Source of the DNA: Heterotrichella gracilis
Lineage: Eukaryota; Sar; Xanthophyceae; Tribonematales; Xanthonemataceae
Assembly (NCBI GenBank): GCA_032358255.1
Contig: JAULBX010000448.1
Span: 62,001-126,000, forward strand
Length of the DNA: 64,000 nucleotides
Reading direction: 5' to 3'
Position numbers and translations under genes: made by a program. Positions 3,848 to 63,567 of this stretch are shown in pieces. The stretch's first letter is position 1; every line of letters starts with the position of its first letter. The notes under the pieces are model-generated. The model worked only from the letters and a program-made list of their open reading frames with translations. It was not told where the DNA came from and made no database searches.

Positions 3848-6800
3848 ATGGAGCCCTCGGTGGTGCAGAACATCGAGTATGTGGTGCTGGGGATCACCGG
3901 TGAGTACTGACACCTTTTCCCAAGCACACACCCGCCTGCCTGGCTGCCTGGTGGTACACACGAAGACCACCAACTGGCGGTGGTCAAAGAAAACCCTAAT
4001 CAGGGGGTGTGCACCGTGCCTTCTTTCTCCCTGTGCCTCCTTAGAAGGCCCTGGCTCTATTGTGCACTCAATACTCCCTCACTCACAAACAACCCCCACC
4101 CATTGCAAACACCCCACCACTGCCCCACTCATCTCGTGCCCTCCCACCCCTTGCACCCTCCCTATCGCAGCCCCCACCTCCGGCCCCATACCCCATACCC
4201 CTGCAAGCACCACTGTCCGCCACTGCCTTGGCCCCCACCCCTCCACCTCCCACCCACCCACCCACCGGCCACACGCCCCACCATCCGACGGTTCCACCCC
4301 TTATGTTCACCCACCCCTCCACCTTCCCCACCACCCACTCCACCCACCCGCCCCACCACCCCGCAGGCGCCGCGGTCCTCCTATGCCTAGTGTGTGCCTG
4401 GTACATCACCCCTTGGACCCGCAAGGCTAGGCGAAACTCCTCCACGCACGAGTTCAACGTGCTGTGGAAGGCGCGCCTGGGGATGGAGCTCGTGGGAGCC
4501 TTGTGGGTGGTGCGTGTGGAGGGGTGGGGGTGGGGTGGAGGTGGTGGGCGGCCGTGTGGGTGAGCGTGACTGTACGTGGTGGCTGGGGTGGGGGGAGGCG
4601 TGGTGGAGAGTTTAGGAGGGGGGCAGGGAGGAAACTGTCTGGCAGCAGCAGCATCGTTCAGCGTGCTGTTAGGGTTTGGCAAGGGTTTTAAGTGCCGTCC
4701 AGGTGGCTTAGGAGGTTGCGGCTCCAGCCAAGTGTTTGTATGGCAGGGTTTAGGGTTTAGGGTTCAGGGCGGGGCATAGCACAGCACAGCGCAGTTCTGC
4801 CTTGACACCCCCCCCTCCTCCCACTGCACCGCCTCTCCCTCCCCCCACTGCAGCTGGTCCATGTGATGCGGCTGCAGGTGACCTCGGGCCCAGCCTCTCA
4901 GGTTAAATATTTCGGTCAACCCTTTTTAAGTTGTAATTTACATTGTATTTTTTACGCCCCGATTCTTGCCCTCTTAAACCCACTTACCCGCCACCCCCTG
5001 CCTGGCCTCCCCTCCCCCTTCTGATCCCCACCCTCCTCCCACTGCAGATGGTCCAGGTGATGCGGCTACAGGTGACCTGGGGCCCCGCCTCCCCTTGGTT
5101 CCCCACCTCAGTCACCACAGCCACCTCCTCATCCTGGTGGTGCCGCGCATACCTGGTGGCCAGCATGGGGTTGTTGCAGCCGCTGTTCCTGGCAATGGCG
5201 GTGGTGCTCACACGCCAGGCGGTCAGGTGAGGATCAAAGCTGGGGTATGTTGCTGCTGTTCCATGTTGTAGGCCATAGGCTGGGGCTGTGCGATCATAAA
5301 ACCCTAGGCTAGGATGTGGCCAGCATGGGGTTGCTGCAGCCGCTGTTCCTGGCAATGGCGGTGGTGCTCACGCGCCAGGCGGTCAGGTGTGCTTGGGAGA
5401 ACCCTAGCCTAGGGTTTTGGATACGTAAAGTGAGGTTAGGTTGCTGCTGTTCCATGTTGTAAGCTTTAGGGCTGTGCGACCATGAAGGCGCAGGCTAGGA
5501 ACCCTAGCCTAGGCATTGCAAGCCCCTCCTGCTGCAGCTGATATACCTAATGCTGGAAGCAGCAGGCCAGTGCCGGTGTGCAGCATGGTGTTGGCCAGGC
5601 ATAAAGCCACTGTTCCAGGCGTTAGGCCCTGGGCTGTGCAATCACAAAACCCTAGGCTAGGGTGTTGGCCAGCATAAAGCTGCTTGAGCAACTGCTGCAG
5701 TTGCTGTGGGTGGTGTGCACTAGTTGTGGGCCTGCGGCCGTGGGAGCCCTGCATGTTGTCTACCTACCACACATAATTACATAGAAAGGGTAACTGGTCA
5801 CTGGTGTAAAACTAGATACATCAGTTCAGGGTGTGAAGTACAAAGTCCCTGTTACGGATTCATAATGACATGTGCGCACCTCCCACCAACCCCACCCCAC
5901 ACCCCTGCAGCAAGATGCGCCCCCAGGACCGCGCAGCACCCAACCGGCGGCTGCTCCTCCTCTCACTGGCAGCCACACTACCCCCCCTAGCACTGCAGAC
6001 CGTGGTGGCGTTCTTCACCAAAATGCATGGGGAGGATAGCTGGGCCACCAAGCAGCTGGGGGGCGCGGGGTACTACTTTTTCACTGTGGATGTGGTGGGC
6101 GGTGCGGAGGAGTGCGGAGGGGAAGCAGGGTGCGTGCATTGGGGGGTGGGTGGGTGGTGGTAGTGAGGGTGGGGGGTCGTGTAGGGGGGTGGGGGGGATG
6201 CCGCATCTAGGAGACGCACTGAACCGCATGCATGCACACTTGTGGGTGTGCACGGGGTTGGTGGTGTGTTTGTGTGGGTGTGGGTGTGGGTGCTCGCTTT
6301 TGTGTTGCTTGTGTCTCTGTTGTTCCCCCACCCCTTCCTACCACCAGCACTCGACGCCCACCCCACCAACACCCACCTCCCATCCCAGGTGCGCTCTGTG
6401 CCTCTACCCCGCCGCCAGCACCATCGTCACCGCCTGCTTCTCCGGCGCATGCACCGCCCTGCTGGCCTACCTGTGCTACACAATGACCTCCCGGGTACTC
6501 AATGTGCACCTGGGGAAACGCATCCTCGCCCTCCTACTCGTTTTTTTCCTGTCCACCACCCTGAGCCTGGCGTTCCCGGGGGTCAGCGTGCTGTCCCAGC
6601 CCTACGACACCCTGTTTGTGGTGTGCTGGCTGGGCCAGTTTGTGAGCGTGGTGGGGGCGGTGGGGGGCGTGGGGTGGCTGCTGGTGGCGCGCCCGGTGTG
6701 GGACAGCAACCAGGCGGAGAAGGTGGGTGCTGGTGGTAGTGTGGTGGTGGTGGGTGGTGTAGCATACCTCTCATTCTACCTGCGTCCTCCCCAAATCCCG

Positions 6801-8381: not shown

Positions 8382-11376
8382 TCACCCCCTCTTCCCCTGT
8401 ATGTCTGCCAGCAGGCCAGAGCAGGCGTCCTCCAACAAGTCCAGGACCTGCGGGGATGGGGGACAGATGTTGCAATTTTCAGGACCTTATAGGGGGTTTT
8501 TAAGCCCTTGGTGCAAGGATAAAAGCTAACAACAGGTAATGGTTTTACCATAATAGTGGTCAGTTATTACGCTTGCATAGTGCACTGGGCGGCCAGGTTC
8601 ACGCCTGTTGTCAGCCACTGGCCGATACACCCATTCCCCTGGCAAGGGTTGAACCCCCTACTGAGTGAACCCACTTACTACACGCATGTATTGAAGTGTC
8701 CCATGCATCTGCCCTGGTTCCTTAGTGGACGGCAAAACTGTGCTAATACTATTACAAACCACAAACAGAGAAGGCATCCCCAGCCGTCATCGTAATTCAT
8801 AGTAGTACAGATAATACATCCCCACCAACAAGACTGATCTCACCTGTGCAAATCTGCTGCCTTGCGGGTAACTCACTCATTGACACAGTTTCAGTTTAAT
8901 AAAGTCAAATCTGGAGGGGCCAAGGCAATTGCATGGTTTGGAATACCCATGCAGTGTCCATTTTCAGTAGTTTTCCCAGCGCTACTCCAAACCCTATGCA
9001 AGGACACAAAAGCATGGATTATAATATATCCGCTAAGGTTCTTCACGCACCAGCTCAAAGCCCTTGTCCCCACCATAGTAGGGGTCTGGCACGTGATCGT
9101 ATGATTTGAACTCGTCACTGGTCAAGTAATCGGTCATCAAGCGAACCTGCTCAAGGGGAAACGGGGTTAGTAGAAGGGGAGTAGAAGGGAAAAGGGATCA
9201 TACATGCAGAATTCCAAAGGCTTTGGCAATTATTGAAGCCAGGGCAAGGTACACAACTACTGATATCTTTTTGCATGTGCAACCTTACAGACACATCGAA
9301 AGACAGATACTGAAATAAACCAGGAATATCCGACAAGGTTGCCAGGGGCGCTTGCCGTAAACCTTGCCCTTATCTGGTATCCTAACCTACCGCTATCGCA
9401 GCGCTGATTCAACTCACCCACCTTTTCCCTGTACCCCTCCGGCACCTCCTTGCCCTTGCCAGCCCAATGGTCCCCTGCCACCTGGCAGCAGCAGCAGCAA
9501 CACTCAGCAGTGGTAGGGTTTACAAAGGGTTTTGCTCAGGGTTGGTTGAATTTTTCAAGGATGTTCATTTGCAGCAGCCCATTGCCACCTGGCTCCAAAC
9601 CCTGAACCCTAAACTCTGGATCATCGCACCTCACAGCGCCACAAAAACAAAAGCTGGAAGGACACTTCCCTTGCAGTAATTCATTGGTTTTGAAGTGTGG
9701 CCATCGCATACATCGTGAAAACACCCCTCACACAGCACCGCCACCAACCCACACATTTCACAACCCACACAACATGCGGAGAGACATATTCCCACACCCA
9801 ACAGACGGAGAGACATATTCCCACACTCCATGCAGGCCACATGCAACTGACTCCCCCTTCACCCACCTGAATGGCCGTCATATTCGCGGCGTCCATGCCG
9901 ATGATGTAGTCAAATGTGGCCAAATCTGCCGGTTTGAGGGGCCTTGACCTGGATGTGAGGTGCACCCCTCGGGCCTGGGCGGTGCGGCGCATGCGGGGAT
10001 CTGCGGCATCCCCCTCGTGGTAGGACCAGCCCCCATCCTGGTACCTGCGGAAACGGAATTTAGGTAACAAATGGTGAAGTGTGGCATCAGAAAAGGTGTG
10101 GATATTGCTTTGCTGCAGCTTGCTGGGTGTTTAGTTGGTAGGTTGCCCGGGACTTGATAGAATGGGCAGGGTTGGTGGAATGCGGGGGCCTGCGGCATCA
10201 ACCTCGTGATAGGACCCGCCCCAATGCTGGGGATGACAAGGATATGACTAGGGTACAGCCAGGGTTTGACTAGGGTGTCGTTAGGGGGATGCCAAGGGTG
10301 TCGCTAGGGGATGCCAAGGGTGGAACGCACCAGCTTGGGTTTCCCCCTCCCGTGCCGCATGAGTCTATTTCGAACCCCCCCTGCACCCCCTGCCGCTCCA
10401 CCACCGCCCGGAACACAGCCTCAGCAGTAGGGCTGCGGCAGATGTTGCCTGTGGGTGGGGCGTGGGGGTGGGTGGGTGGGGTGGGGGGTGGGGGGGAGCG
10501 CACGCTGTGTTGGTGTGCCCAGTGCTGTGTATGGGTGGATGGTGGCAGAGCGCGCTGTGTATGATGGGTGGCAGCGGGGTTTTGTAGCGGCGCGGCATGA
10601 TGCAGCTGGTCCGTGGTTGGTCAAGCCGAGGCCTCTAAACCCTAAGCGCTGGACCCTAAAGTCTGAGCACTTGTGCCCGGGGGTTGGGGCGAGTGGCACA
10701 CCCAGGCAACACTCACTGAGCACCTTGCTCCTGCCGCGTGTGCTGGTGGGGGGTGGGGGCGGGGTGGGGGGTGGGGGCACGTACCTAGGCATACAAACAG
10801 CACCTTTGTCTTTCCTCCTGCTGGGGCTGGCAGTGGTTCCTGCAGCAAGGCGGAGCACGGTGAGCGTACACCCAAAACCCTACACCCTAACCTGCGGCAC
10901 ATGGTGAGTAGACACCTCCCCGCCAAAGTGGTGTGTGGCGACCACAGCTTGGGATGGTTGTGGGTGGGTGGGTGTGGATGTGTGTGGCGCAGTGGGGTTT
11001 GGTGTGGATGTGGGGCTGGGGGTGGGTGTGTGGGTGTGGATGTGGGGGTACGTGGGCGGGAGCGGGTGAGCAACCATACCACACTTTCGATGCAAAGGAC
11101 AAAGACACAAGCACAACCACATCCCCACCAAACCCAGAAAGTCCAAGCAGTGCTCGTGAATTCAAAATTCACCTGTTGCTCCCCTTGCTGAGCCCACACC
11201 CTCACTCCCCTGGCCACCATCACGCCCGGTGCCATGGTGGGGGCCCGTGGGGTGCAGAGGCTGCGGGCTGGGGGCGGTGTGCGGCGGCGGTGCACGCTAA
11301 TTTGTGCCGGTGAGGCGGCGGGGAAGGCGGGCGCGCGGCTGCTGCAGGCGGCAGTAGCAGGGCTTGGCATACCCAT
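8382..11376 (-). CDS. Low-molecular-weight protein tyrosine phosphatase, plastid-type, 7 exons
   Basis: The protein is a cysteine-based phosphotyrosine phosphatase of the low-molecular-weight (arsenate-reductase fold) family. Exons 11376-11173, 10839-10785, 10448-10331, 10044-9867, 9481-9422, 9146-9051 and 8447-8382 join in phase to give 258 residues. The signature C-X5-R-S is split by an intron: VLFVCLG at the end of exon 2 and NICRSPTAEAVFR in exon 3, with catalytic Cys about 85 and Arg about 91. The general-acid Asp lies in the DPYYGG motif of exon 6. Typical family members have about 160 residues. The extra N-terminal 70 or so are rich in Ala, Ser, Pro and Arg with no acidic residues, as in a chloroplast transit peptide, so plastid import is inferred. 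The start used is the ATG reading MGMPSPATAAC. In-frame ATGs exist both upstream (11451) and downstream (11235). Confidence 0.9.
10183..10231 (-). repeat. Decayed duplicate of exon 4 start (phosphatase gene)
   Basis: The plus-strand block at 10183-10231, with CCTGCGGCATCAACCTCGTG and TAGGACC, mirrors 9996-10044, the 5' edge of exon 4 in the phosphatase gene. It is followed by short repeats of the kind TAGGG-GATGCCAAGGG (about 10260-10320). It lies in the intron upstream of the true exon 4. Confidence 0.7.
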
Positions 11377-12178: not shown

Positions 12179-14364
12179 ATGTCAGGCGCGTTGTCCACCG
12201 TCTTGTCCTACGTTCGTCCAAATATCAACGCCGTGGTGCTTCTCACGGTGTATATAGCGCTGAGGGAGTGGGGGGCTCCGCAGTACGCTGAATGGCGAAA
12301 AGGCGACCAACCAGCTTGTTTCGACTCCTATGCAGGCAAGTACCCCCTTCAACCTTGCTCCGCTCCCTCCTAGAGTTTATACTCTGTCCTGAGGTCTTAT
12401 AAATACCCTGTTTTCCTGCAGTGGGGTCTCGCCTGCCGCATGTCTGGCTAACGGATCAGCTATATGACCGAGACGGCCCGTACGATGGGCTGAGGCACAT
12501 TACGCTGGCAGGCGGCAGGCACCACGGCCTCAAGACCTTTGAGGTGAGATAAAGTGATGTTCTTTTTGCCTGCAAACCGCCCACTTGGGTTGTTTCTGCG
12601 CTTGATCTAGCAGCCATGTGGGTGGCCACGAGGCGCACTGGTGGTGCCTAGTCAATTCACGTGGGGTCTAATTTATCAGCGGTTTCTTAGACGCCAACCT
12701 CGTTGAGGTGAACCGCACACACACACGCACCCCCACGTTGCAACAACCACCGCTCAGCCTTGCGTCTCTTGTGGGCAGCACGGGGTGGATGCCACATGGG
12801 GTCCAATTTAGGGACCCCTTGTGAGGTGAACCGCATCTCCCCACATGCACCCCTCACAACCAAAGGCTGGCTAGGCTAGGCGAAACCCTGCTCCACCTTG
12901 CTGCTAGCAACAAGGTTTCCAACCGCAGACCTTAAACCCTAAAGCCCCTCCACCTTGTTGGCAAGCAAACCTGTGTAGAGGTTAGGGGTTAGGGATTAGG
13001 TAGAGAGTGGGTTAGCTAACCCTCTACCTAATCCCTAACCCCCAACCTCCTAAAGCCTGAAACCTGCCCCACCACCTGGATCTCACCCTAAGCCTCAAAC
13101 CCTAATGCTTGCCCCACCTTCTCGCTTGCAGACATGGCTCCAGACGATGGCGCCAGGCATGTCCACGCCCATCCACAGGCACGACTGCGAGGAGATAAAC
13201 TGGATAACCAAGGTGGGTGGCAGCTGCAAACCCTTAAACCTTAAACCCTCAATAGGCGCGACTGCAAGGTGATGGATTGGATCACCAAGGACAGCTGTAC
13301 CTGCACCTTAACCTGTACCTCAGTGCATGGCCATCGCCAGTGTACAAGGTTATATACTGCCCTGTATAACTTCTAACACTCGACAGCTGTAAGCGATCTG
13401 GCTGCAGATCGCTGTGCTCATCAGTGTGGCGTCAGCTACTGTGCGCCATATGATACCTGTGTGCCTCTTGAACCCTAGTAAACCCTCTTGAATCCTGCCA
13501 CACCTCTATTGAGACTGCGTTGAGCGTGCCTTGCCAGGGTCTCCATTGGTCAATACACCAATACGTGTGCATCCTCCCATCACTGCACGCCCACACACAC
13601 GCCAACGAACCACTGGCCGGGCCTGCAAACCCCAAAGCCCAACCCTAGTCCGCAAGGTGTACCACCTCTGGAAGGAGCCCCAAACCCTATACTAAACCCT
13701 AAACCCTAAACCCCACCCCGCAGGGCTCTGGCATCCTGCGGTACCGCGCATCTGGCGCCAGCGCAGTGCTTGAGGTGGCCATAGGGCCCAACAGCACGGT
13801 GTTTGCGCCCCCAGGGTCGGTGTACCAGGTGAGGAAGGGTTTTTTGCCCGCTGGCCAGATCACCGCATTTTTGCCCCGTCGCATTTTTGCCCCGTCGCAT
13901 TTTTGCGCCTGCAGGGTCGGTGTTCCAGGTGAGGAAGGGTTTTTGCCCCGCTGGACAGATCACCGCATTTTTGCCCCGTCGCATTTTTGCCCCCGTCGCA
14001 TTTTTGCCCGTCGCACTTTTGCCCCATCGCATTGCAGCAAGCATGTACACATTGGCGCCCAGCATGCATCCACAGATGCCGCAGCCTACTCCCACACACC
14101 ACATGTCATGCTACACCATCCCTGTCCCGGCAACACCCAACCACCCACCACCCCTCCCACACCCCGCAGTTTTCCAACACCGGCGCCACCGACATGCAGA
14201 CCCTGGTCATCCTGGGCTGCGCCCACCCCACCCTGTACCGCTACCCCTCATGGAGCACGCGCGATGCAGACGCCACCAAGATGGACCCCATGCCGTGGAA
14301 CGCGCACTGCCCGCCCAATGTCACGGCGTCGATCACCACCCCCATTGGGGTGGCTGCAGCCTAG
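12179..14364 (+). CDS. ABP1: Auxin-binding-protein-1-like cupin, 5 exons
   Basis: Exons 12179-12335, 12422-12543, 13132-13212, 13724-13828 and 14170-14364 join in phase to give 219 residues. Residues 94-114 (WLQTMAPG through HRHDCEE) match the ABP1 cupin box with its HxH(X)3E metal motif (H108, H110, E114). KGSGILRY, APPGSVYQFSNT and LQTLVILG-like strands follow in the ABP1 order, and the C-terminus has the WS plus W helix pattern. In plants ABP1 is an ER/apoplastic auxin-binding glycoprotein. Here the N-terminus is a single hydrophobic segment (AVVLLTVYIAL) preceded by charged residues, so an anchor or signal is likely. Three oddities stand out. The fourth metal-ligand position (His in NDxHQVWN of plant ABP1) appears to be Tyr154. 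There is no C-terminal KDEL. Intron 1 starts with a GC donor (CAG|GCAAGT), supported by phase. Whether it binds auxin cannot be told. Confidence 0.88.
13680..13720. repeat. Interstitial telomere-like repeat (AAACCCT)n
   Basis: Several imperfect AAACCCT heptamers occur directly upstream of the exon 4 acceptor of the ABP1-like gene. The plant-type telomere unit TTTAGGG is the same sequence on the other strand. Similar short arrays recur at about 4745, 17511, 30158, 40590, 49520, 53905 and 62970. Confidence 0.85.
13812..14035. repeat. Exon 4 edge duplication plus GCATTTTTGCCCCGTC minisatellite
   Basis: The end of exon 4 with its donor (GGGTCGGTGTACCAG|GTGAGG, 13813-13834) recurs at about 13914 as GGGTCGGTGTTCCAG|GTGAGG. 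Each copy is followed by GAAGGGTTTTT and by tandem units of about 16-17 bp built on GCATTTTTGCCCCGTC, seven or so in all. The arrays end just before position 14040. All of this is inside intron 4 of the ABP1-like gene. Confidence 0.9.
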
Positions 14365-14498: not shown

Positions 14499-14501
14499 AG
14501 G

Positions 14502-15710: not shown

Positions 15711-18700
15711 TCACGCCCCTGCCTCCCCCGCCCCCACCCCTTCCGCAGCCGCAGCCACAGCCGCAGCCACAGCCTCGGCCACCTCCCGCAGCCGCCCCAC
15801 CTCAGGCAGGATGGAACCCTGGCCCAGCTCGCCAGGTGTCACCTGCTGGGCCACCGCCCCCGCTGCCGCCACCAGCATGGCGCGGGTGATGGCGGAGTGG
15901 GGGGAGCGGAGGTAGCCCAGGCCCACCCCTGTGGGAAGGGGGGGAGCGGGGTTGTGGTCGAGGGGGAGGGGGGTGGTATGGTCCATGATAAGATAAATTC
16001 ATGTGCGTGGATGCCATGACGCATGGTCAAGAGCATAGCAAAAACAGGAAAAAGCACAAAAGTCCACGCTGCCTTTCCCTGAAGACGCGCCCTGGTTTCA
16101 GACAAGTTCCCAGGTGGGTTTGTCTTCCTGGGTTTGTCACACTTCTTTCATGAAACTCAAATCTTATTTCTGTAATTGGTGAAGTAGCAAGGGATCCCCA
16201 CCTGGGAACACAAAGCAGTTGTTTGCCTGCGCCGGGTTGTACAGGGAGCCATCAGGAAGATTAAAGGAGGGGAAGTCGGTGCCGCTGGCAAACACCGCCC
16301 TGCCCCCAGACCACTCCATTGCCTGGCGGGCGCTGCACTCGGCCTTAGTGGCGGGGTTGGAAAGTGCCAAGATGAGGGGGCGGGTGCCGGATGGGCGGGG
16401 GGATTGGTCCAAGCCCTGGATCAGGTGGGAGCGACTATTGGCGTGGGAGCGACTGTTGGCATGGTGTATACTGCGACGGGCTGCGTTTATAAGAGTAATA
16501 CCTATAATTAGTTAGTTACATGCATTCCAGCAATACAGCCAGATTAGCAGTCGGTCATGCATATGCGGCGCCACGCAGCTTTCCTGGCACTGTTTGAACC
16601 ACTTATTGATCCCACGCGACTTGAGGTCCTGCTGGAGTAAGTCAGCCCATGTGGCCCTTGGCTTACCTACCCCCTTTGCCCCCTCTACCCTACCAAACAC
16701 CATACATTTAGGAACCCTATCGTCTGATGAACCTATGATGTAAATCACATGAAGTGGTGTGGATGTGTGACAGTACTGAAGTCGTTTTTAGTCTTTGTGG
16801 ACAGGCCCCCAATAAGGGGGCCGGGGAGGTGGGGGGGGGGGGCGGGGGAGGGGTCAACGCCTGAGTGGGGGTGGCGCATGTAGAGGGATAAGATGGAATA
16901 TAATTTGGATTAAAATGCAATGGAAATGAATTGTGTAAAACAAACTAGAACCCTCTACCCTTCCCACACACCACCACCATCCTACCCACCTCCACCAGCG
17001 CAGCCACCACCCCCTGGTCAAAGGCCCCCGCCAGGCTGGCAGCCCCCACCAGGGTGGTTGGTTGAATCACGCCCACTGCCTGACGCAGGGTGGCGCCATG
17101 TGGCAGGCGCAGGGCGTCCAAAGGGGGTCGCGCGAATGGCAGCTTCTCGCTGGTCATCCCCTGCTCTCGACCCTGGTATACCAACCCCTGTGGGTGGGTT
17201 GGCAGGATTAAAGGGAGATTGTGGGGATGGAGGGGTGTAAGTGGTTCCCATTCGCAAGAGGCCTGCCCAGCATAGTATGCATAAGAAGTCACCATTTCCG
17301 CACAGAAGAATGACAGCAGGTTTCACTCTACACGACCATGAACACTTGGGCTCACTGCTGGTGTTTGCATGCAGAAATTATGTTGCAATGCAATTGACTT
17401 CCCTGTGACAGCAACCTGGATCCCTGCACACCTAAACGCTCGCAAGCATGGCACACCAATGGACCATATGCTGTCCATTCACCCTTCAGTCCATCATCCA
17501 GCTGCAATATGTAAACCCTAAACCCTAAACAGATATCCAAAGGCTGCTTCACCTACCCTCGAGTCCATCATCCAGATGCGGTCCACTGCCTGCGCACGGG
17601 AAAACCCTGCAAGGGTAAACACAGCAAGTGACACAAGGGTCTGCCAAAGGGTTTCCATGGGGCAGTGTCCCCGTGCAGGCCACGCATTTCTACAAGGTTT
17701 CCACACACAAAGGGGAGCTTCACCCATCTATGCCACCAGGCAATATCTTTTCACCCAGCATAGGGTTCCCTGTGTTTTCTGTGTGCAGGATACCACACGC
17801 TACCCCTCCTTGCCTTTATCCATACCCTCCAATCACCTCCCAAACCCACCCAACTGTATTATCCTCTGAACCCCACTTTGAAACCCCTCCTTTAGATATA
17901 ACCGTCCCCCTCCACCCACCCACCCACCCACCTTGCTCCTCCAGCGCCCCCACCACCAAATCCGCAATGCCCACAGACGCCTGCCCTGCCCCCAGGAAAA
18001 GATACACCTGGTCAGCCAGGGGAGGAACCCCTTCCATCTTTGAGGCTCCCATCATGGCGGCCAGGGCCACAGCAGCGGTGCACTGGATGTCGTCGTTGAG
18101 GGTGGGGAAACCCTACGGAAGGGTTTTAGGGACGTCAGGGCTGTGGGCAGGGCGACAGCCGCGGTGCACTGGATGTTGCTGATGATGTTGGGAAACCCTG
18201 GGGAGGGGTTTAATGAGCGCTGATGTATTGACCAGAAAAGTGAAGGTTGTGCGGCATTGGGTTGAAAACCGGTGCACTGGTTGTCGTTCTTGATGGGGGT
18301 CCAGAGGGCTCTGGGTTGTTGTCCAAAGGGTTTGGGGTTTGAGGCAGTGGGTCAAAATGTGCGGCGCTTGCAATGACACTAGCACAAAATCCTAAGCAAG
18401 GGTGTGCCACCACATGACCATTGTGCCATACCCTGAGCAAGGTACATCACACACCAACACGAGACCTGCTCCATTCTGTATGCAAGCTTTTTGCCACCCA
18501 CATGTTCACCCACCCTCACACACACCTTGCCCTGGTATTCCTTCAGCAGTCGAAAGGCATTCCTGGCCCCAAAATCCTCCCAGTGTATTAACACCCGGGG
18601 ACCATATCTGTCCCTCACCGCCCCGATCAACTCCCCCAGTAATTGATCGTATTCTTCGCCTCGTACCCGTTTCCCCCTGGTCCCGATGTACAGGGGGTCA

Positions 18701-21310: not shown

Positions 21311-22296
21311 ATGCTGTCGTCCATCGCCCTCCCCAAGCCCTTCGTGGCACGACACTCCGCCCCCCGCGCCAGCCGCACCACCGTCCGGGTGCAGGCCGCC
21401 GCATGGACCACGGCGCTGACCAAGACTGAGCTTGCCGAGAAAGGCAACCTCGCTGTGGTTGAGGTGAATGGCCAGCGGATCCTGTTTGCGCAGGTGGATG
21501 AGGACGTGTTCGCTGTGTCCAACAAGTGCACCCACCTTGGCCTGCCCCTGGTGGGCAAGACTGCCATCTTCCAGGGCAAGGTGAGAAGAGAGTGAGGGTG
21601 GTTCGGGATGTAAGGAGGTGTGGTGGCGTTTGACATGCATGCATGTATATGCATGCATTGGGCTAGCCAAGCATTTCAACGCCAAGGACTGCCCAACTAT
21701 CGGTCTACTAAGTAGCTCTTAGGTTGTTTCAATCTTTATACTGATCTGTACCAGATAACCTATCTTTGCTGCTGGCTGAGTAGCGCACCCTTGTCTAGCC
21801 AGACACGCGATGTCCACACATACACACCAGGTATAGGGCCTTCTCCTCAGTGCACCAGCAGGTTGACATGCCTATTCCTGTCCCTATCCATCACCTATCC
21901 CTTATCCTGCCTGCCTGCTTGCCTGCCTGCCTTCCACTGAATGAAAAACACTGGGCCCTATCTATACCCCAAGAAGCCTGCAGGGCTGCAACCCAAAGAT
22001 TTGTATTGTCTTTCTACCGCCCAGGTCACGGACAGCTGCATCCCTGTCCCTACCCTATCCCCAAATGCCTGCAACCTCAAGCATATCCTGTCATTTTTCT
22101 TGCCCAGGTCGCGGACAGCTGCATCGTGTGCCCCGCACACGGCACCGCCTTTGACCTTGCCACCGGCGCCGTGAAGGGCGAGTGGTGCCCCAACTTCCCC
22201 ACCGTGCCCTTCATCGGCAAGGGGACCAAGGCCTCCCCCCTGCCCACCTTTGAGACGCGCGTGAACGAGGCGGGGGCCATCGAGGTGCTGGCATAG
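21311..22296 (+). CDS. Plastid Rieske [2Fe-2S] ferredoxin-like protein, 2 exons
   Basis: Exons 21311-21580 and 22108-22296 give 152 residues. The N-terminus (MLSSIALPKPFVARHSAPRA, then SRTTVRVQAA) is a classic chloroplast transit peptide, cleaved probably near residue 30. The remainder is one Rieske domain: first cluster motif CTHLGLPL (C73, H75) and second motif CIVCPAHG (C98, H101), the two Cys-His pairs that bind a [2Fe-2S] cluster. The chain ends shortly after the fold and has no catalytic partner domain. It therefore looks like a soluble electron carrier or the small-subunit type related to nitrite-reductase Rieske domains. No membrane anchor is present, which argues against the cytochrome b6f Rieske subunit. 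The intron contains a decayed copy of the second exon's start. Confidence 0.92.
22017..22052 (+). repeat. Decayed duplicate of Rieske exon 2 acceptor
   Basis: The block CGCCCAGGTCACGGACAGCT (22018-) followed by GCATCCCTGTCCC parallels the real acceptor and exon start GCCCAGGTCGCGGACAGCTG at 22102. It retains the AG. The copy loses both Cys residues of the cluster motif, so use of it would inactivate the protein. Confidence 0.85.
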
Positions 22297-43797: not shown

Positions 43798-43910
43798 ACC
43801 AATGCGCATTGGATTTTCCCTGACCAGACTGCAGTTCAGGGTTCAGGGGTTAGGGTTTAGGTTAGGTATCGGTAGACCATTGCGCATCGGATTTCCCTGA
43901 ACAGTTCTAC
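43787..43910 (+). repeat. Duplicate of the TPR-RING stop-codon region
   Basis: The last bases of the gene and its 3' UTR (CGGTAGACCAATGCGCAT, from 43790) recur at about 43869 as CGGTAGACCATTGCGCAT. The two are separated by GGTTCAGGGGTTAGGGTTTA. This has the same form as the intronic exon-edge duplicates, but at a 3' end. Confidence 0.85.
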
Positions 43911-51600: not shown

Positions 51601-53886
51601 GTAAATTACAAGTCATTGACAAATATTTTGATTCTCGGCGCAGTGGTTGCCGGCTCCCAGGGTTCCCGGGGGTAGGGAGTGGGCGGCTGCTTTTATGCAA
51701 AGGGGAGATCATCCCAGATGATAGTGAGCCTCACGTGGATTACAAGTCATCGGCAGTTTAAAGCAAGTAGACCAGGGATGGCAGCATCACTGCGGGTGGG
51801 GAGTGGGTGTGGGTAGTGTGCATTTACAAGGGGGAGACATGCAAGCCAATGCCCTGATGCGCCAAGGGTTGGAGGTGACAAGGGAGAGAAGCTTTGCACC
51901 TGTGCAGGCCCCTCTTCCACACAGCAGCGGCCATTGCTTAGGCGCCATCAAACCCGATTCTTAGTGTGTCAACAAAACCCTTCCCTAGGGTTTCTGCGCA
52001 CCTGTGGCAGCCCCCTCTTCTTTGCCCTGGAGCTCACACAGGATGGGTCTGCCGCCAGCATGCGCCCATACTCCTCGCAATGCTCCTTGTCCTCAGCCCA
52101 CGCGTAACCCTACAGAAGGGTTTGGACAAGGGTTGAAGTAGGGTTTAGGCAAAGCTCCTTGTCCTCAGCCTGCGCGTAACCCTACAGCAGGGTTTAAGAA
52201 GGGTTAAAGTAGGGTTTAGGCAGGGTTGGGGGCAGAACCACTCCTCGCAATGTTCCTCTTCTCACCCTCAGCCCTCGCGTACACCTACAGCAGGTTTTCA
52301 GAAGGGTTAAGTAGGGTTCAGTCAGTGGTGGGGGCGGAAACACAACAGCTCCTGTAATGTTGTAGTTCCCCGCCTGCGCCGCCCTACACTAGGGTTTACA
52401 CCGCCTTGCCACTCCCAAACCCTAAAACCCTAAATCACCTTCCGAAGCAACGAGTCCATGCCCATCGCCAGTGCCACTCCCAACAACCCTAAACTCTACC
52501 GCATTCCCAAAATCTAGACCCAACCTTTTAAACCATTCTCACCTCTCGCAGCGACCAGTCCATTCCCATCTCCAGTGCTGCTTCCAGGTCCTTGCGGGTG
52601 GTGGGGATGATGCCCTGAGACCCCACCCCCACGGGTATGTGGTCAAATAGGGACTGGGCGAGCTGCTCCTTGAGATGAGCCACATCCTTCTCTAACTGCA
52701 GTATGGGGGACGTAGTTAAAACGACAAGGTTGGAAAGAGGATGTGGATGGGATACCCATGAAGGGGTGGGGCCGTTTTCCATGTCTCGATTCCTGGTGGG
52801 TCCCATGAGCCTGGCGGCTCATTGAGGTCCAACCGCAGCCCTCATCAGCTTAAGGGTCTAGGGTGTGTACCCTTCCCCCCCTCACTCGCCGCCAGTGGCC
52901 TGACTGACCCTGGCCCACATTTTACATCACATGCACCCATCTACAACAAATTGGTCAACACTTCAGTGCCCGCATGCACCCTTCACACTCACCAGGTTTG
53001 TCCGGATGAGCCTGACCCCGCAGTTTATGTCGAACCCCACCCCCCCTGGGGACACCACCGCCTCGGGGTTGTTCATGTCGAACGCCGCCACATTGCCGAT
53101 GGAGAAGCCATAGCCAGAGTGCACATCGGGCAGGGCGATGGAGCTCTGTGGGGGCAAGGGGTGGGTGGGTGGGAGGAGGGAATCAATGGAGGCAGGGTAG
53201 TCGGATAAAAAAAGTGGTAGTCTGCCACGGTCTGCCACAGTTCGGTAGCATTCAGTGGCAACTAACGGTAGTGGTAGGCAGGGTTGTGCATGTCAAATCT
53301 TGCCACGTTCCCGATGAAGAAGCGTACCCCAAGTGCACATCAGGCAGGGCGATGGAGCTCTGTGGAAGTAGGGAGGGGGTGATGGAGGGATGAGCATAGC
53401 AAGCGATGAGGAATGGATGAAAGGACCCACCCCGCCGGCGGTATAATACAATAAGAAAATGGTGGAAAGTCTGCTGTAGTTTTGTAGTATCTGTTTGGCA
53501 ATTGACCTTTGCATGGCAATTTGGCTTTGCAACAACTTTGCAACCATTGCTAGCCCCAATCCAATGCGCATAGCAATGCACACGCAATACGCCATGGCGT
53601 GCCATGTTGCTGACCACTGGCAGATTTTTCTTCAACCCCCTCCCCCCCTCTCCTCCAGAACACACACCTTGACGATCCCCGGCATGGCCGCCACGTTTGC
53701 TATCTGCTTGACAGCTGGCAGGAACCCACCATGGCCCCCGCTGGCCGAGTAGGCGTGCAGTTCATCGTATAACAACCCCTTGAGGCGGTCGTTCACGTAC
53801 ACGCGGCCTGGCACCAGCATGTTGGGCACAAAGCCCGGCAGGATGTCATAGTGCACGGGGCCCACTTGGCGGATGTAGGCGGACTC
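48615..53886 (-). CDS. RTCB: tRNA-splicing ligase RTCB (HSPC117 family), 5' exon not found
   Basis: RTCB joins tRNA exon halves (RNA 2',3'-cyclic phosphate to 5'-OH) using GTP and Mn. Exons 53886-53668, 53145-52993, 52695-52543, 52109-52002, 51545-51441, 50841-50711, 50224-50044, 49726-49558, 49262-49162 and 48791-48615 join in phase and give about 498 residues. The animal protein has 505. The sequence is very close to the animal form throughout: [48 protein letters not shown] (metal-binding Cys), [70 protein letters not shown] (the His that takes GMP) and LRPIAVVKG at the end. Only a short first exon of perhaps 6-20 codons is missing upstream of 53886. Nearly every intron carries decayed copies of exon edges. 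Confidence 0.95.
49909..50420 (-). repeat. Exon-edge duplicates in RTCB introns (set 1)
   Basis: The exon edge at 50040-50110 (CATACACCACATGCATATCC) recurs at 49944 as CATACACCACATGCATGTCC, followed by GTTTAGGGTTTAGGG. The other edge of the same exon (50160-50235; GGGGGAGTGGATCCTG) recurs at 50337-50415 with TTGGCGGCGCA, CCATGG and CCTCTGGCCCTCGGGGGAGT preserved. Both copies keep the splice dinucleotides. Confidence 0.88.
50790..51206 (-). repeat. Exon-edge duplicates in RTCB introns (set 2), three copies
   Basis: The block GGTGGCCCAGGCCGCGGCTG at 50800 recurs at 51016 and, more diverged, at 51156 (GGTCCAGGCCATGGCTCCCG). In each case it is followed by GTGGATCAT and GATGxxCACCTGGG. Each copy includes the exon start and the splice acceptor of the [13 protein letters not shown] exon. 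Confidence 0.9.
51505..52595 (-). repeat. Exon-edge duplicates in RTCB introns (sets 3-5)
   Basis: GTAGTGGTTGCCGGCGCCCA (about 51517) recurs at 51640 as GCAGTGGTTGCCGGCTCCCA. The acceptor of the [11 protein letters not shown] exon (52080-52118; CTCCTTGTCCTCAGCC and CGCGTAACCCTACAG) recurs at about 52150-52192 and again at 52240-52300. The edge at 52540-52595 (GCAGCGACCAGTCCATTCCC) recurs at 52443 as GAAGCAACGAGTCCATGCCC. AGGGTTTA motifs separate the copies. Confidence 0.88.
53065..53365 (-). repeat. Exon-edge duplicate in RTCB (set 6)
   Basis: The start of the [18 protein letters not shown] exon (53067-53148) recurs at 53283-53367, keeping GGCAGGGCGATGGAGCTCTG exactly and the adjacent acceptor. 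The copy at 53283 has lost the reading frame in part. It lies in the intron upstream of the true exon. Confidence 0.9.
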
Positions 53887-57655: not shown

Positions 57656-58298
57656 CGTGCCTGATGGGTGGTTGGGTGATGGGTGGGTGGATCGGTCTGA
57701 TGGCGGGCAGGAATCTTGTTATGTGTTTGCGAAGGCTGCAGCACACGAAACAGGCGAGGACAGCAACACTTGGTAAGGCTACTGTTTTAATAAGGGATGA
57801 GCATTCTACCACCGTTGTTTGCTGTGGTTTGTCGCAACGCCTATTGGTCGAGGTTTCCGCGGGAAAAGGATCCCGTTTTTCCGGAAGCATTTTTTGAAAT
57901 TCAAACTCATTTTCGAAAAATTAATTAACCCCCAACAAAACCCTCCGTTGTCCCCATGCATTTGGTGGAGCTTGACTGCTCCCTTAATCAGCAACTTAAT
58001 GGGAAAAGAGTTGCTTTGAATGCTTGCTTGCCTCATTAACACCTGGCAGCGGTTTGTAACCACCCACCTGGTCTGAGCACATCACTGTGGCCCCCCAACC
58101 AGTGCCCGGGACACTGCCTTGCCAGCGCTTAATATTCAACAAAACCTGGCAGGCCCTTGTGGCGGCGTTAACGCAGCGTTTCCTTATGCTTGGGGTCGCC
58201 CTAGGACAGCTTGACTGACCAGAGTGTGTCAAGCAACGGCCATCCCTGTGTCTCAACCAGCTGTCCCAAGAATAGCTCTCAAACCGCCAGCTGCTAGG
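57656..58298. other. Divergent intergenic region
   Basis: About 640 bp lie between the divergent CURT1/CAAD and NDOR1 start codons. It includes an AT-rich stretch near 57890-57930. It is a probable bidirectional promoter; no specific motif is claimed. Confidence 0.45.
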
Positions 58299-61200
58299 AT
58301 GGGACCGCAGGCCAGCACCACCCCGCTGTTGGTGCTCTATGGGTCCCAGACTGGCAATGCACAGGTGAAGCCCTGCATGGGGAAGCTCTGCATGGGCTAC
58401 AGAGTTGCCTCCATGCATGTATGCATGCAACCATGGCCTTATAGGCTGAAGATGTTTGCGCTCTGGAACTGCATATGTATCCACCTCCACCCCGCTCCCC
58501 TACACATGAGCCCTTAGCATCACTCACACCTGCCCTCTCCCGCCCTTCTTCCCCACACTGACCCAAAACCTCCCGCCTCCACAACCCACCACTCCACGCA
58601 CCACCAACGGCACCCACCCACCCACCCACCTGCCCCCTCCCTGGCGCCATCCCGCACCCGCATTCCCACCCAAATACACCTCCCACCCACATCCCCCACC
58701 TGCTCGCAGGACGTAGCAGAGCTCATTGGCCGCGAGGCGCGCCGCCGTCACTTCTCCCCCCGCGTGCTGCCCATGGACGCATACGACGTCACAAACCTGC
58801 CTGGTGAGCTGGCGGTGGTGGCGGTGGCGGCCACCACGGGGCAGGTGCGGGACACAAAAATCTGGGCCACATGCATGCCTTGGGCATTGGGCATTGGGAT
58901 GTTGCATGCCATGGCGCACGCCATCCTTGCTGGCCGTGCTTGTGCCACCTGCACATATACGTTTGTGGCCACATGGTGCTGGCAGCACTATTGTCAGCAT
59001 GGTCGATGCGGTATGTTCTTTGGAATCATGAGTTGCATTGGGGTCGTGGGCAATTGCCATGCTGTGCGGTCAGCGCCCCGATGCCGCCGCCAGCACTGTT
59101 TTCGAGGGCATGTGGTGTGTATCTGCTCTGATTGCCACACAGCTGTGCAAGTCAGGTTGGCGTGCACCCACTAGCGCCTTTTTTGTGTGGCAGCCCTTGC
59201 CTAGGATTAGCATCCTGACATGCTGGAACCCTTGCTTAGGGTGAGCACCCAGACAACATGCGCTCCTTCTGGCGCTTCCTACTGCGCAAGTCACTGGCTC
59301 CAGACTCGCTTGCTGAGGGGGCGTACGCAGTGTTTGGCCTGGGCGACTCAGGTTTGTCAGTTACTACTGCAGGTTTCTGGTACACGTGGTGTTTGTGTGC
59401 CTGGGGAATTTGAGGGTGGCAACAAGCATTTCCATTGCTCCCTCCCCGTTGGCCGCCCGACCTTGCATTGCTTTATCGATAGCCACTGCCGCACCCCCCC
59501 CTATACCCTCCACGCCACTCATGACACCCCACACATTCCGTGGACACCCTCCCCATACTACTCCCCTTACACCCGGCCTGAAACCCTGCGTAGGGTATGT
59601 CAACTTCAACACGGTGTCCAAGAAGCTGGACAGGCGGCTGAGCGGCCTGGGTGCTGCCCCCCTCCTCCCACGGGGTGAGGGCGATGACCAGCACCCAAGC
59701 GGCTACGAGGCGGCGCTGGATGCGTGGCTGCCGCAGCTGTGGGGGGCGCTCAGGGGGCGCTTCCCGCTGCCAATTGGGGTCACCGAGGTGCGGGGGGAAG
59801 CTTCCTGATGGCTGGTTGATTACCTGCAACGAGTAACGATGTCAAAGGCATTAAAGTACAAGTAATCCAACAAACAAAAATTCTTATTTAATAAAAGTTT
59901 CATTGGTGAGTATACATTTATTTACTTGGCTGATTACTTTCATCCAAGAGTGCAGCCAGATGAGCAATGCGGTTTAGCTGAACCAACCATGCTGTCCCCT
60001 GATGCAGCCATCACCGGATGACACCACTGCACACCTGGACCCCAAATTCCGTGTCACGTTCCTCCCCTCGCCTCCCTCCCCCACCGCCCCACCCCTTGAC
60101 CACCATGCCGAGGCCATCGCAGCAGCAGCAGCCTTTCGAGTGGTGGATGCAGCAGCCTCCGGCCAATGCGCAACACCAATTGCAACTGATCATAACTCAT
60201 TCGACGGACAATTGCGGGAGGGGTGGAGCCGGGATCGACCCTATTTTGCCCGCATGGTGGGGAATGCGCGAATAACTGCCCCGGAGCATTTTCAGGACGT
60301 GCGCCACATCACGCTGGATATAGGCCCCTCTGGGATGGAATACCAGCCAGGTGGGGCTGATTTGGACCCTTAGTAACAACGCCCCCTCATCACTGGCTCT
60401 CTATGTGTGTTCAATGTGCGACTGTGCATGCTTGCGCACCAGGAGGTATTTTTTTGTGCATTGTAGTAGGCACGAGCAAACAAAGTTGCTGCGGTTCCCC
60501 AAACACCTCAGATGATACCACATTGCAACCCATGCCCCAGCAGTTTCCAGCACACATTGCTGCTATAATTCAAGCGATTTCGTTCAGAGTTTTAAATCAG
60601 TATCCACATTTCTGCCAATTTGCACTGCCCCGCAGCCATCCACACCCTACTCAAACTCTACAAAACCCTGTCAGAAAGTCTTGTGTGGGGTTTTCAGGTG
60701 ATCTGCTGGCCATGTGGCCCCGCCAGTCTCACGAAGCGGTTGAAGGGTTTTGTGCGCGCATGGGCCTGAACGCTAACGATTGGGTGCGGGTGGAGCCTGC
60801 GGAACCCCCCGTCTCATCCGCATCCCCTCACCCCCACATGGAGGTGCGTACTTGTCAGGACTGCTCGATCGAAACCCTAACCCCTGAACCCAACATGGAA
60901 GGGGACATAGTGGACAGGAGGGCAAAGCCGTCTTTGCTAAAGACTAACTCCTCTTCCTGGACCATCACACCTGTTCCAAGACGCAGTTGCAGCGTAGTTT
61001 GTTTATAGACCTATCAGCAGTCTCCAGGGTGCATTTTTGCCAATCCCATGCTATTGGTCGCCATTCCTTGCAGGTTTTTGCTGATCCTCTGCCGACAATA
61101 CAGTTGTGTGCCCTGGACACTTGTGGGATCCCCATGTGAGGGGCATCAATCCCCCTTGTCCGTGTGACGCCATCCATTTCCCTCCCTCCTTCTCCCTGCA

Positions 61201-63567
61201 GGCACGGGTGGGGGCCCTGGTAGCCGGGGTCCTGGACATCTATGGGATCCTCATGTCATGGGCACCAGTCCCCCATCCACGTGTGACGTCATCCATTTCC
61301 CTCCCCTTCTTCTCCCTGCAGGCACGTGTTGGGGCCCTGGTGGCTGGGGTCCTGGACATTTGTGGTGCCTCCCCCCGGCGCACATTCTTCCAGTGCCTGC
61401 AAGAATGCACCCCGGATGGCATGCAGCGGGAGCGGCTGGAGTACTTTGGCAGTGCAGAGGGGAGGGACGACATGTACACATACAACCAACGGGAAGGTAA
61501 CGGTTTTGTGCAATCTTGTGCATCATCGACCCATTGCATACACGACTCCCTGCAAGGGTTGCTGAGGGCTTGGAGTTGTGTGTGCGGCATTGCGGGGTTC
61601 TCCCTGCATTGTACGATGGCAACAGGAGGACTTCAATATATCACGATATATTATGTTATATATTGAAGTCCTCCTGATGGCAGCCCTAGGTGAAGGTTTA
61701 ATGATGAGACATGCATATGACTGAATGAAGCAACACATGCATGGAATCCTGTGACATCCGATGACTGTCCGCTCAAAATTGTTACCCCTCCCCCACCCCC
61801 CTGCAGGCCGCACAGTGATGGAAATCCTCCAAGATTTCTCCTCCTCTACACCCCCCTTGGACCTGCTGCTGCAGACCGTGCCCCACCTCAAGCCGCGCCA
61901 ATTCTCAATCTCCTCATCCCTGAAGATGCATCCCGGGGAGGCCCACCTCACTGCCGCCATCGTCCAATGGAGGACCCCCTTCAAGCGACTGCGCCAGGGT
62001 GTGTGCACGTCGTGGCTGGCGGGTCTAGACCCTAGCGCAGGGCAGGTAGGGTTTTGGGCGGGTTTGTGGCTGTGGGTGGGTCCTGCCAGGTTGGAGAGGG
62101 CGCTGGATGCAAGCTGCCAACTGCTGTGGCTGGTTGTGTATTCGCACGCACATGTGTACATATGATTGCATGCATGTCAGCAGTGCAGCCAGATTGGCAG
62201 TCAAAGTTGCACAGCTGGTGCTACCCAGCTCTGTCTTCACAATCAAAACAAACCGCTTGTAACTGTATTACAAAGCATAACCATTCCATTATCTAGTGGC
62301 TCCACAGCCTGGAATACTGGCTCCAAAGCCTGGAAGAAACCTTGGTTGCTTGAACCAACATGCTCCACAAAACCATCACCAGGCACACCACCGCCTCGCC
62401 CATGCACCTTCATTTTCACCCTCTCAAACCACACACCACGATCCCTAAACCCTGAATCCAAACCCTCATCGCCCATGCACACTCATGTGCGCGGTCTCCC
62501 AGCCCCCAACTCCACATTGCCTACCCTTCTCCCCACCGCAGGTGTGTGTGCCGGTGTGGGTGGAGCGTGGCGTGATGCGCCCCCCACCCACCCCCACCAC
62601 CCCCATGGTGCTGGTGGGGCCTGGCACAGGGGTGGCCCCTCTCAGGGCAATGCTGGAGGACAGGAAGGCGGACCAGGTAGCAGGTAAGGGGTTGAGCTAG
62701 GGTTTAGGGTCCACGCTAGGATGGGGCAAGGGTGTGGGGCGTAATGCTGGAGGACAGGAAGGCGGACCATGTGGCAGGTAAGGGGGTTTGCGTTAGGGTC
62801 TGGTTGAGGGTTTGGACCTGGGGTTTAGGGAGGAAATGCTGGCAGAACGACAGGTTGTGGGCCAGGCGGCATGGAAGGGTTTGGCTAGGGTCTGCTAGGG
62901 TTTCGGCGAGACCTGCTCATCATGGAGCTGCTCGCGGACCTGGGCAGCAGATCGAGGCAGTGTATGGTAGGGTTTAGGGTTTACGACTGCAGTGGTGCAG
63001 CCCTGGTGTAGATGCACCGCTCCATGTGGATAGGCATGATATGCGCTTGACCTGGCTGAGACGATTGTCGTTTCCTAGTGTGCATAGGGAAGCTCATGAA
63101 ATCTCCACTCCACATGCAACCCCACGCATGGCCTGGAGCCATCCCCATGTCAAACCCCTGTTTTTAATTCTCGCTGGCCTGCAGGCATCCCCATTGCTCC
63201 CAGCTACCTCCTCTTTGGCTGCCGCAACTGCAAGGGGGATTATTACTACCAATCGCAATGGGAGGAATACACGCGCACGGGGGTACTGGCTCCCCAAGGG
63301 GGACTAATCACCGCCTTCTCACGGGACCAGGCCCAGAAAGTGTACGTGAGCCACCGCATCCGGGAGCATGGCGAGACCCTGTGGAGGGTATTGCAGCAAG
63401 GGGGGGTGGTGTATGTGTCGGGGTCGGCGGAGAAGATGCCGCAGGATGTGGCCAGGGCATTCTGCGATGTGGCGGTGGCGCAGGGGGGGATGAGTGAAGA
63501 GGAGGGGAGGAGGTTTGTGCGGGGGCTGGAATTGCAGCGGAGGTACTTTGTAGAGGCGTGGTCTTGA
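58299..63567 (+). CDS. NDOR1: NADPH-dependent diflavin oxidoreductase 1 (TAH18/ATR3 type), 10 exons
   Basis: The enzyme passes electrons from NADPH through FAD and FMN to the anamorsin/Dre2 protein in cytosolic Fe-S cluster assembly. Exons 58299-58364, 58710-58844, 59240-59351, 59594-59787, 60008-60350, 60698-60843, 61322-61496, 61807-62045, 62542-62683 and 63185-63567 join in phase to give 644 residues. Landmarks include the FMN phosphate loop YGSQTGNAQ, the FMN-domain ATTGQ and DNMRSFWRFLL, and GDSGYVNFN. The FAD-domain motif RQFSISSS and the NADPH-domain motifs GPGTGVAPLRAMLEDR and LLFGCRNCKGDYYY follow. The chain ends RYFVEAWS. The linker after the FAD-domain start is Ala-rich and adds to the usual 600-residue length. 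Two introns carry tandem copies of the following or preceding exon edge. Confidence 0.95.
61106..61380 (+). repeat. Tandem repeat of acceptor and exon start in NDOR1
   Basis: About 125 bp (61110-61255 and 61238-61380) are repeated: intron tail with TTTCCCTCC and CTTCTCCCTGCAGGCACG, then GGGGCCCTGGT-GC-GGGGTCCTGGAC. The second copy leads into the complete exon ARVGALVAGVLDICGASPRR. The first reads ARVGALVAGVLDIYG and then diverges. Both acceptors look usable. Confidence 0.9.
61621..61683. repeat. Perfect-stem hairpin in NDOR1 intron
   Basis: CAGGAGGACTTCAATATA and TATATTGAAGTCCTCCTG form an 18-bp perfect stem with further partial pairing outside, around an AT-rich loop of about 20 bases. It resembles the tip of a small foldback (MITE-like) element or a tight RNA hairpin inside the intron. 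Confidence 0.85.
62163..62200. repeat. Dispersed repeat related to the LINE fragment's 3' end
   Basis: GCATGCATGTCAGCAGTGCA then GCCAGATTGGCAGTC is closely similar to 16520-16556 (GCATTCCAGCAATACAGCCA then GATTAGCAGTC), which flanks the LINE tail in the malic enzyme intron. Both lie in introns. Shared 3' ends are what 5'-truncated LINE copies would give. Confidence 0.5.
62640..62860 (+). repeat. Exon-end duplicates in NDOR1, three copies
   Basis: The end of the NADPH-domain exon with its donor (ATGCTGGAGGACAGGAAGGC, 62650-; GGACCAGGTAGCAG|GTAAGG) recurs at 62743 almost unchanged with an intact donor, and at 62838 in a decayed form (ATGCTGGCAGAACGACAGG). TAGGGTTTAGGG separates the copies. Confidence 0.9.

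Follow-up and report, generated by a model that had tools for sequence, protein, structure and literature searches.

The closest described systems fall into two groups, duplications across exon boundaries and telomeric repeats placed inside chromosomes or genes. Excerpts of a potato study describe one duplication crossing an intron–exon boundary (PMC4974935), and duplication of AGGT has been modeled as a route to intron gain (PMC3443670), with cases from Drosophila (PMC2891723), both likewise represented here by excerpts. For interstitial telomeric sequences (ITSs), the excerpted parts of PMC7215372 report telomeric insertions in the horse that, at a few loci, duplicated their target in direct orientation, for which the authors invoke staggered breaks, and an intronic share of 31% among human ITSs, the level of random insertion. 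Plant telo boxes (AAACCCTA) peak in 5′ untranslated regions (UTRs) and occur in introns at 150.7/Mb in Arabidopsis and 72/Mb in rice; the authors suggest that telomerase acts on 3′ ends linked to transcription (PMC3022908, in excerpt). As far as these excerpts go, a single junction-crossing duplication (potato, PMC4974935) and telomeric insertions with flank duplication are already known. Here we describe a 64-kb window, the whole stretch analyzed, from Heterotrichella gracilis (contig JAULBX010000448.1, positions 62,001–126,000), in which 18 of 65 modeled introns hold decayed copies of the edge of an adjacent exon and telomere-like heptamers (AGGGTTT/AAACCCT) abound in introns. Among the matches listed, the titles and opening abstracts of open-licence PMC papers held no description of exon-edge copies together with an intronic telomere-like motif.

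Gene models were taken from a hand-written hidden Markov model (HMM; third run, with the codon table from the first) and then corrected by hand, giving 12 genes with 77 exons and 65 introns (median intron 348 bp); all counts and simulations refer to this one contig and these models. Self-alignment of the window with BLAST (at least 36 bits, spacing set to 25–600 bp) returned 29 near pairs in direct orientation and none inverted, whereas 20 dinucleotide-preserving shuffles returned no near pair of either kind. Twenty-one of the 29 rows paired an exon edge with the adjacent intron. The others comprised three intron–intron pairs from edge-copy families, two pairs at the end of a coding sequence (CDS; 14272/14428 and 43788/43866), one intergenic pair (440/538), one in-frame exon–exon pair (31457/31529), and one low-complexity pair (19845/20438), which was set aside; with the low-complexity filter off, four further intron-only rows appeared, in simple C/A- or G/T-rich runs. 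This search is blind to pairs less than about 50 bp apart and was complemented by a diagonal scan at 20–75 bp, which added a pair at a CDS end (38766, 38 bp), one confined to an intron (9766, 29 bp), and two outside modeled genes (40176 and 47018; 23 and 22 bp). From these listings we picked 21 exon-edge copies, with aligned lengths set by hand; they occupy 18 of the 65 introns, in eight genes, and the remaining 47 introns have none (Table 1).

An independent scan of exons against their adjacent introns, keeping the best match per comparison, gave scores of at least 34 in 17 of 130 comparisons and at least 38 in 15 of 130. At the higher threshold none of the controls matched (390 shuffles, 130 reverse complements, and 130 introns from other genes); at the lower one there was one match among the shuffles, none among the reverse complements, and one among the introns of other genes. 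All 17 matches shared one geometry, with the exon start recurring in the upstream intron (11) or the exon end in the downstream intron (6), as a one-junction duplication whose exon-proximal copy stays functional must give. The geometry was looser for very short exact matches (at least 9 of the terminal 14 nt), which were found on the exon's own side, within 200 nt, for 6/65 starts and 4/65 ends, and on the crossed side, searched over whole introns, for 0/53 starts and 3/53 ends, these ends lying in the upstream intron. No significance was reached for inverted copies of splice junctions in general (p=0.052 for acceptors and p=0.94 for donors). The exon-edge copies are real and strongly non-random. 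A preliminary description of this DNA had listed 17 intronic copies in eight genes, plus one at a 3′ UTR, as a pattern beyond chance; self-alignment within the window bears this out. Every one of those copies was found again, with each named coordinate in or beside a copy, the tally of eight genes held, and four unlisted copies were added (marked new in Table 1).

Table 1. Copies of exon edges and of coding-sequence ends, with the gene richest in them (percentages are identity over the aligned length)
Feature	Position	Strand	Alignment and splice site
Exon-start copy (source 5031-5091, exon at 5048), upstream intron	4837..4897	+	90%/61 bp; AG kept
Exon-end copy (source 5156-5229, exon end 5226), downstream intron	5316..5389	+	97%/74 bp; GT kept
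Start copy, LMW-PTP exon 9867-10044, upstream intron; source edge putative	10180..10233	-	84%/51 bp; AG lost
End copy, exon end 13212, cupin/auxin-binding-protein-like gene; new	13246..13290	+	78%/45 bp; GT lost
Full tandem copy, exon end 13828 plus 78 bp of intron	13902..14007	+	93%/106 bp, unit 100 bp; GT kept
Copy of last coding exon (14272-14340), past stop codon	14428..14496	+	81%/69 bp
Start copy, malic enzyme exon 17932-18112	18145..18211	-	81%/68 bp; AG one base displaced
Start copy, Rieske exon at 22108	22019..22042	+	96%/24 bp; AG kept
Start copy, exon 23642-23800 (BRCT/BAH gene); new	23963..24001	-	87%/39 bp; AG kept
Start copy, exon 30018-30140; telomere-like units in spacer to source; new	30190..30219	-	90%/30 bp; AG kept
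Start copy, exon 30353-30450	30504..30545	-	88%/42 bp; AG kept
Copy of stop-codon region 43788-43827, TPR-RING gene	43866..43904	+	87.5%/40 bp
RtcB gene, ten exons; 498-aa product; nine of the 21 copies in its introns	48615..53886	-	
End copy, RtcB exon 50044-50224, downstream intron; abuts TTAGGGTTTAGGG on + strand	49916..49974	-	86%/59 bp; GT kept
Start copy, RtcB exon 50044-50224, upstream intron	50353..50423	-	87.5%/72 bp; AG kept
Copy 1, start of RtcB exon 50711-50841	51014..51062	-	94%/49 bp; AG kept
Copy 2, start of RtcB exon 50711-50841	51147..51218	-	81%/73 bp; AG kept
Start copy, RtcB exon 51441-51545	51629..51669	-	85%/39 bp; AG lost
Copy 1, start of RtcB exon 52002-52109 plus AACCCT-rich intron tail	52149..52239	-	tandem array match 52077-52241/52149-52343; AG kept
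Copy 2, start of RtcB exon 52002-52109; new	52240..52324	-	78%/87 bp; AG kept
End copy, RtcB exon 52543-52695, downstream intron; adjoins TTTAGGGTT (gene sense)	52435..52482	-	79%/48 bp; GT kept
Start copy, RtcB exon 52993-53145	53281..53394	-	78%/115 bp; AG kept
Full tandem start copy, NDOR1-like exon at 61322	61112..61245	+	84%/135 bp, unit 119 bp; AG kept (edge moved one base)
Tandem end copy, NDOR1-like exon 62542-62683 plus intron	62743..62903	+	73%/172 bp, unit 94 bp; exon part 33/35; GT kept

The copies decay like non-coding DNA, at ∼11%, and look like dead weight rather than coding exons. Mismatches between copy and exon numbered 33/302, 33/301, and 59/294 at codon positions 1, 2, and 3; the excess at the third position arises because the constrained source is free to change there, a freely decaying copy contributing equal rates. 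The distance from source to copy was divisible by three in 6/21 cases, and this lack of bias is what removal of the spare copy by splicing would predict. The RtcB product, with the copies excluded, aligned without a gap to solved homologs (9i8v_C over residues 7–498), and the mRNA therefore need not contain the copies. We therefore rejected the idea that they are alternative coding exons: A coding copy would show a different mismatch pattern, and the RtcB product is gap-free without them. In the alignments, the edge of the copy coincides with that of the exon, and the splice dinucleotide is in place in 17 of 21 copies (AG in 12/15, GT in 5/6), about as neutral decay would leave.

Full tandem units are found at three edge loci (13802, 61112, and 62649), and the array at 52077 overlaps itself. 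The intron flank beyond the edge resembles the matching flank above shuffles (P≤0.01) in 14 of 21 copies, two of the 21 flank tests being copy-to-copy comparisons, and the flank of the copy at 5316 recurs at 5243, 5434, and 5611. A tandem repeat across the boundary, taking in exon edge, splice site, and adjoining intron, describes many copies though not all. The recurrent short duplication at junctions suggested earlier thus gains support from the full units, the array, and the flank homology.

We give about even credence to an origin in recurrent short direct duplications, mostly tandem, that span exon–intron junctions and arise in break repair, with telomerase sometimes adding units. A direct duplication, with source and copy spaced about 70–220 bp apart, would span a junction; the exon-proximal copy would go on being spliced and translated, and the spare copy, with 14–80 bp of recognizable exon and usually a splice site, would fall in the intron, where it would be tolerated as it is spliced out and would decay neutrally. 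The duplications may stem from the repair of staggered or nicked breaks, by fill-in or template switch. The horse insertions and the potato duplication cited above are precedents for this account. Going by its title, work by Schiml et al. in 2016 reportedly concerns duplication after adjacent nicks in plants. At such breaks telomerase might sometimes add AGGGTTT/AAACCCT units, and the breaks, or their retention, would have to concentrate at exon edges. A more specific version, to which we assign a rather low probability, is a lineage-specific mutational process in which breaks at the splice junctions of transcribed genes lead to edge duplication and telomerase-added units, so that introns grow and record the breaks.

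The best-surviving alternative is one of ascertainment: Short tandem duplications would occur everywhere, those in exons being purged and those within introns or between genes being missed as both of their copies decay. Tandem duplications do exist elsewhere, at 440–640 and 31457–31627, with shorter ones at 9766 (intron), 38766, 40176, and 47018, and a constrained source exon keeps edge pairs recognizable for longer; in simulation, detection at t=0.2 was 0.87 for edges, 0.53 for intron-only pairs, and 0.57 for intergenic pairs, visibility at low divergence being equal. Under uniform placement, 24.8% of simulated duplications were wholly intronic, 33.5% lay outside genes, and 22.2% crossed one junction. 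A simulation of short copies, scaled to the 21 edge pairs, predicted 46, 31, 20, and 9 intron-only pairs and 55, 37, 26, and 11 intergenic pairs for decay rates of 1, 1.5, 2, and 3 times, against the 0 and 1 seen by the same BLAST search. Adding the pairs from the diagonal scan, for totals of one intron-only and three intergenic, left Poisson tails of ∼0.001 and ∼0.005 at threefold decay; low-complexity intron rows and the two CDS-end pairs are omitted from these counts. Edges are therefore in excess even at a threefold faster decay of introns, and tolerance plus visibility alone are insufficient. Furthermore, the aligned exon parts (14–80 bp, none longer) averaged 43 bp, shorter than the 71 bp predicted by uniform placement (p=9e-4), although what is measured is the aligned part and alignment trimming may contribute to the difference. 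We consider ascertainment unlikely as the full explanation; either the duplication process or its survival seems to favor exon edges, for which these comparisons are evidence, not proof.

A full 98-bp tandem duplication (90%) at 440–640, outside modeled genes, is the sole intergenic case longer than 50 bp. An in-frame 72-bp tandem duplication (31457–31627; 76%/102 bp) in a coding exon of the BRCT/BAH gene is the one long pair that is wholly coding. A 38-bp tandem repeat at 38766–38848, reported by both Tandem Repeats Finder (TRF) and the diagonal scan, lies over a modeled CDS end and is the third CDS-end duplication besides 14428 and 43866.

We turn to the telomere-like motif. Intron sequence (24.2 kb) contained AGGGTTT/AAACCCT 83 times (3.43/kb), against 7.3 expected from a second-order Markov model; the motif was present seven times in 16.7 kb of exon (0.42/kb) against 1.6 expected, and eight times in the 23.1 kb outside modeled exons and introns (0.35/kb) against 4.3 expected, a class into which UTRs were pooled. 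When heptamers were ranked, permutations of the motif filled most of the leading ranks for introns (TAGGGTTT, 26 vs. 0.8 expected), and none was among the 15 heptamers listed for non-gene sequence. The top heptamers outside modeled genes were CATGCAT (19), ATGCATG (19), and TGCATGC (22), with 3.5, 3.8, and 5.9 expected. Neighboring motifs in the same orientation within 40 nt showed a spacing peak at 7 nt (9/31) and a second cluster at 10–12 nt (12/31).

Six-base motif cores were denser in copy-bearing introns than in the others (9.09 vs. 3.40/kb; Mann–Whitney p=1.2e-4), also among introns longer than 300 bp (p=0.006) and outside the duplicated tracts (still 7.11 vs. 3.40/kb). For 10 of the 21 copies a core was no more than 30 nt from the joint, whereas positions drawn at random from those introns gave an expectation of 4.8 (P=0.0035); cores within 40 nt of joints, in gene sense, comprised 14 AACCCT and 2 AGGGTT. 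Core densities in the copy-free genes ZIP, SET/TPRa, CAAD, and TPR-RING were 0, 0, 0, and 0.82 per kb; in the Rieske gene, which carries a single copy, the motif is absent. The link between motif and copies is moderate and correlational: The association proposed in the preliminary description stands at the level of introns, and enrichment at copy boundaries is moderate within 30 nt and weak within 15 nt. Break repair may have added TTTAGGG units, as was also proposed; the motif runs through copy-free introns as well, and perfect arrays with at least two units number just seven in introns.

Motif and copies might alternatively be selected splicing elements, kept as decoys, enhancers, or pairing arms. 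The motif is enriched in introns and polarized, with AGGGTT counts of 17, 14, 11, 5, and 4 and AACCCT counts of 9, 7, 18, 17, and 26 along successive fifths of introns, and AACCCT crowds the 3′ splice site, occurring within 60 nt of it in 12/64 introns compared with 1/64 for AGGGTT. When the final 22 nt before the acceptor junction contain ACCCT, the exon often opens with GGT (6/15 vs. 1/50 of the others; Fisher p=3.7e-4), and the frequent survival of the splice dinucleotide and the outlasting of their flanks by several copies also fit selection. However, intron composition shifts 5′ to 3′ from 34% to 16% G and from 20% to 38% C, and this gradient from G-rich to C-rich can explain the polarity; the copies show no coding selection, and their splice-site retention is near neutral. 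Bridging of intron ends by pairing of 5′ AGGGTTT with 3′ AAACCCT was tried and rejected: The two did not co-occur (Fisher 0.72, 0.90, and 0.62 at 60, 80, and 100 nt), and the advantage of pairing with the intron's own over a foreign end was small and not significant (p=0.27, two window sizes). Another own-versus-foreign comparison pointed in the same direction, with no significance value. Selection for splicing is, in our judgment, improbable as the source of the pattern. Six acceptors have a palindromic form, ACCCT-n-AG|GGT, in which the intron tail mirrors the junction and exon start (17603, 18109, 23797, 52106, 59227, and 59582), and the same form is found at the acceptor copies 23973 and 52178.

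Several observations weigh against our preferred account of junction-spanning duplication by break repair. Thirteen of the 21 copies have an intron flank that has diverged further than would be predicted from the exon part (P<0.05), and 10 of these lie beneath every one of the 200 simulations. A simple tandem duplication running on one clock therefore fails to describe many copies; either the introns change faster than the copies within them, or a number of the copies arose as patches lacking their flank. Flank homology was not significant at 49916, 51014, and 14428. RtcB alone supplies nine of the 21 copies, and the HMM at first called three copies coding (4854–4877, 50357–50410, and a fused 61202–61496), which were removed by hand. 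The association of joints with motif cores has P=0.09, 0.03, and 0.04 at 15, 20, and 40 nt, the four widths being uncorrected, and the joints of exon-start copies face the AACCCT-rich end of the intron. Telomerase acting at random breaks predicts motifs between genes too, where few are found; the rarity of motif and copies outside genes is left unexplained by the break-repair model. In addition, some 350,000 repaired I-SceI breaks in cultured cells yielded no telomeric insertion, according to the excerpted parts of PMC7215372.

In a third alternative, intronic breaks would have been end-joined with 30–100 bp of the nearest sequence plus telomeric units, and the copies would never have been tandem. 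The three loci without significant flank homology, the shortness of the aligned exon parts, and the motif cores near about half of the joints agree with such templated filler. Yet flank homology in 14 of 21 copies is what tandem units show, and patches derived from introns should be at least equally common; outside edge-copy families and low-complexity runs we found no intron-derived patch more than ∼50 bp from its source and one below that distance (9766). We doubt that filler accounts for the copies as a whole, and hold it to be about as improbable as selection for splicing. Two further candidates were not supported: An introner family, because self-BLAST at E<1e-3 linked introns of different genes through telomere-like tracts only, and intron birth by AGGT or target-site duplication, because intron starts matched the next exon start no better than other exons (8.28 vs. 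8.27 matches, with at least 14 in 0/65), so the route to intron gain by duplication of AG|GT that had been cited in connection with these copies was not borne out.

The window has a GC content of 56.4% and intron-rich genes on both strands, from which we infer eukaryotic nuclear DNA. Intron edges are GT-AG in 62 of 65 introns and GC-AG in one, two being imprecise. The GC-AG intron, at 12336 in the cupin/auxin-binding-protein-like gene, was read by hand from the sequence and is supported by frame continuity. Two earlier HMM runs over-joined exons and were not taken as models; some first exons and genes lie outside the 12-gene set, for example at 0.7–2.2 kb and 45–47 kb. The NDOR1 exon edge at 61321 was shifted to 61322 for the mismatch, flank, and later counts. 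The NDOR1-like product aligned to its homolog across the flavodoxin and reductase domains, and the malic enzyme product over residues 10–476 with gaps; the LMW-PTP alignment has several gaps, one of them (12 residues) at the copy-bearing exon edge 10044. Pfam matches were obtained to LMWPc (E=1.3e-32) and Rieske (E=7.5e-14). An algal origin draws weak support from the plant-type telomere-like motifs, an auxin-binding-protein match, and a CAAD match below the cutoff. Scans of viral contigs with RtcB, ZIP, and NDOR1 found no relative, and a scan of genome contigs found a single locus of 40% identity, in a Verrucomicrobiaceae metagenome-assembled genome (MAG; L001). Five stretches of 72%–77% similarity, ∼3 kb apart and in the same order, link 37767–40048 with 40864–43659, which are probably tandem paralogous genes.

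Few dated cases exist that speak to how introns grow, or to why breaks or duplications would favor exon edges. Should the rate of 18 in 65 introns hold for the whole genome, the many directional events could be used to measure the starting points of junction duplications, the speed at which spare splice sites are lost, and any part played by telomerase. Such data would also bear on whether intronic telomeric repeats affect splicing, a question named for testing in the excerpted text of PMC7215372.

As in the excerpted plant telo-box study (PMC3022908), single telomere-like units lie inside genes; their density differs, with 46 AAACCCTA/TAGGGTTT in 24.2 kb of intron, or ∼1900/Mb, although strand counting in that paper may differ from ours. 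The pattern may resemble ITS insertion at double-strand breaks, as excerpted from PMC7215372, in that telomeric units would mark a repaired break and, in the horse, the target is duplicated. Unlike random ITS insertion, the motif in this one window has ∼10 times the density in introns that it has outside genes and forms few perfect multi-unit arrays, and the duplications sit at exon edges. The closest likeness is to the potato case, where, in the excerpts of PMC4974935, a short tandem duplication lies over the boundary and part of the former exon copy is left in the intron with duplicated splice signals. In contrast to known boundary duplications, the copies described here recur in 18 of 65 introns, bear no signature of intron birth, and are associated with a telomere-like motif.

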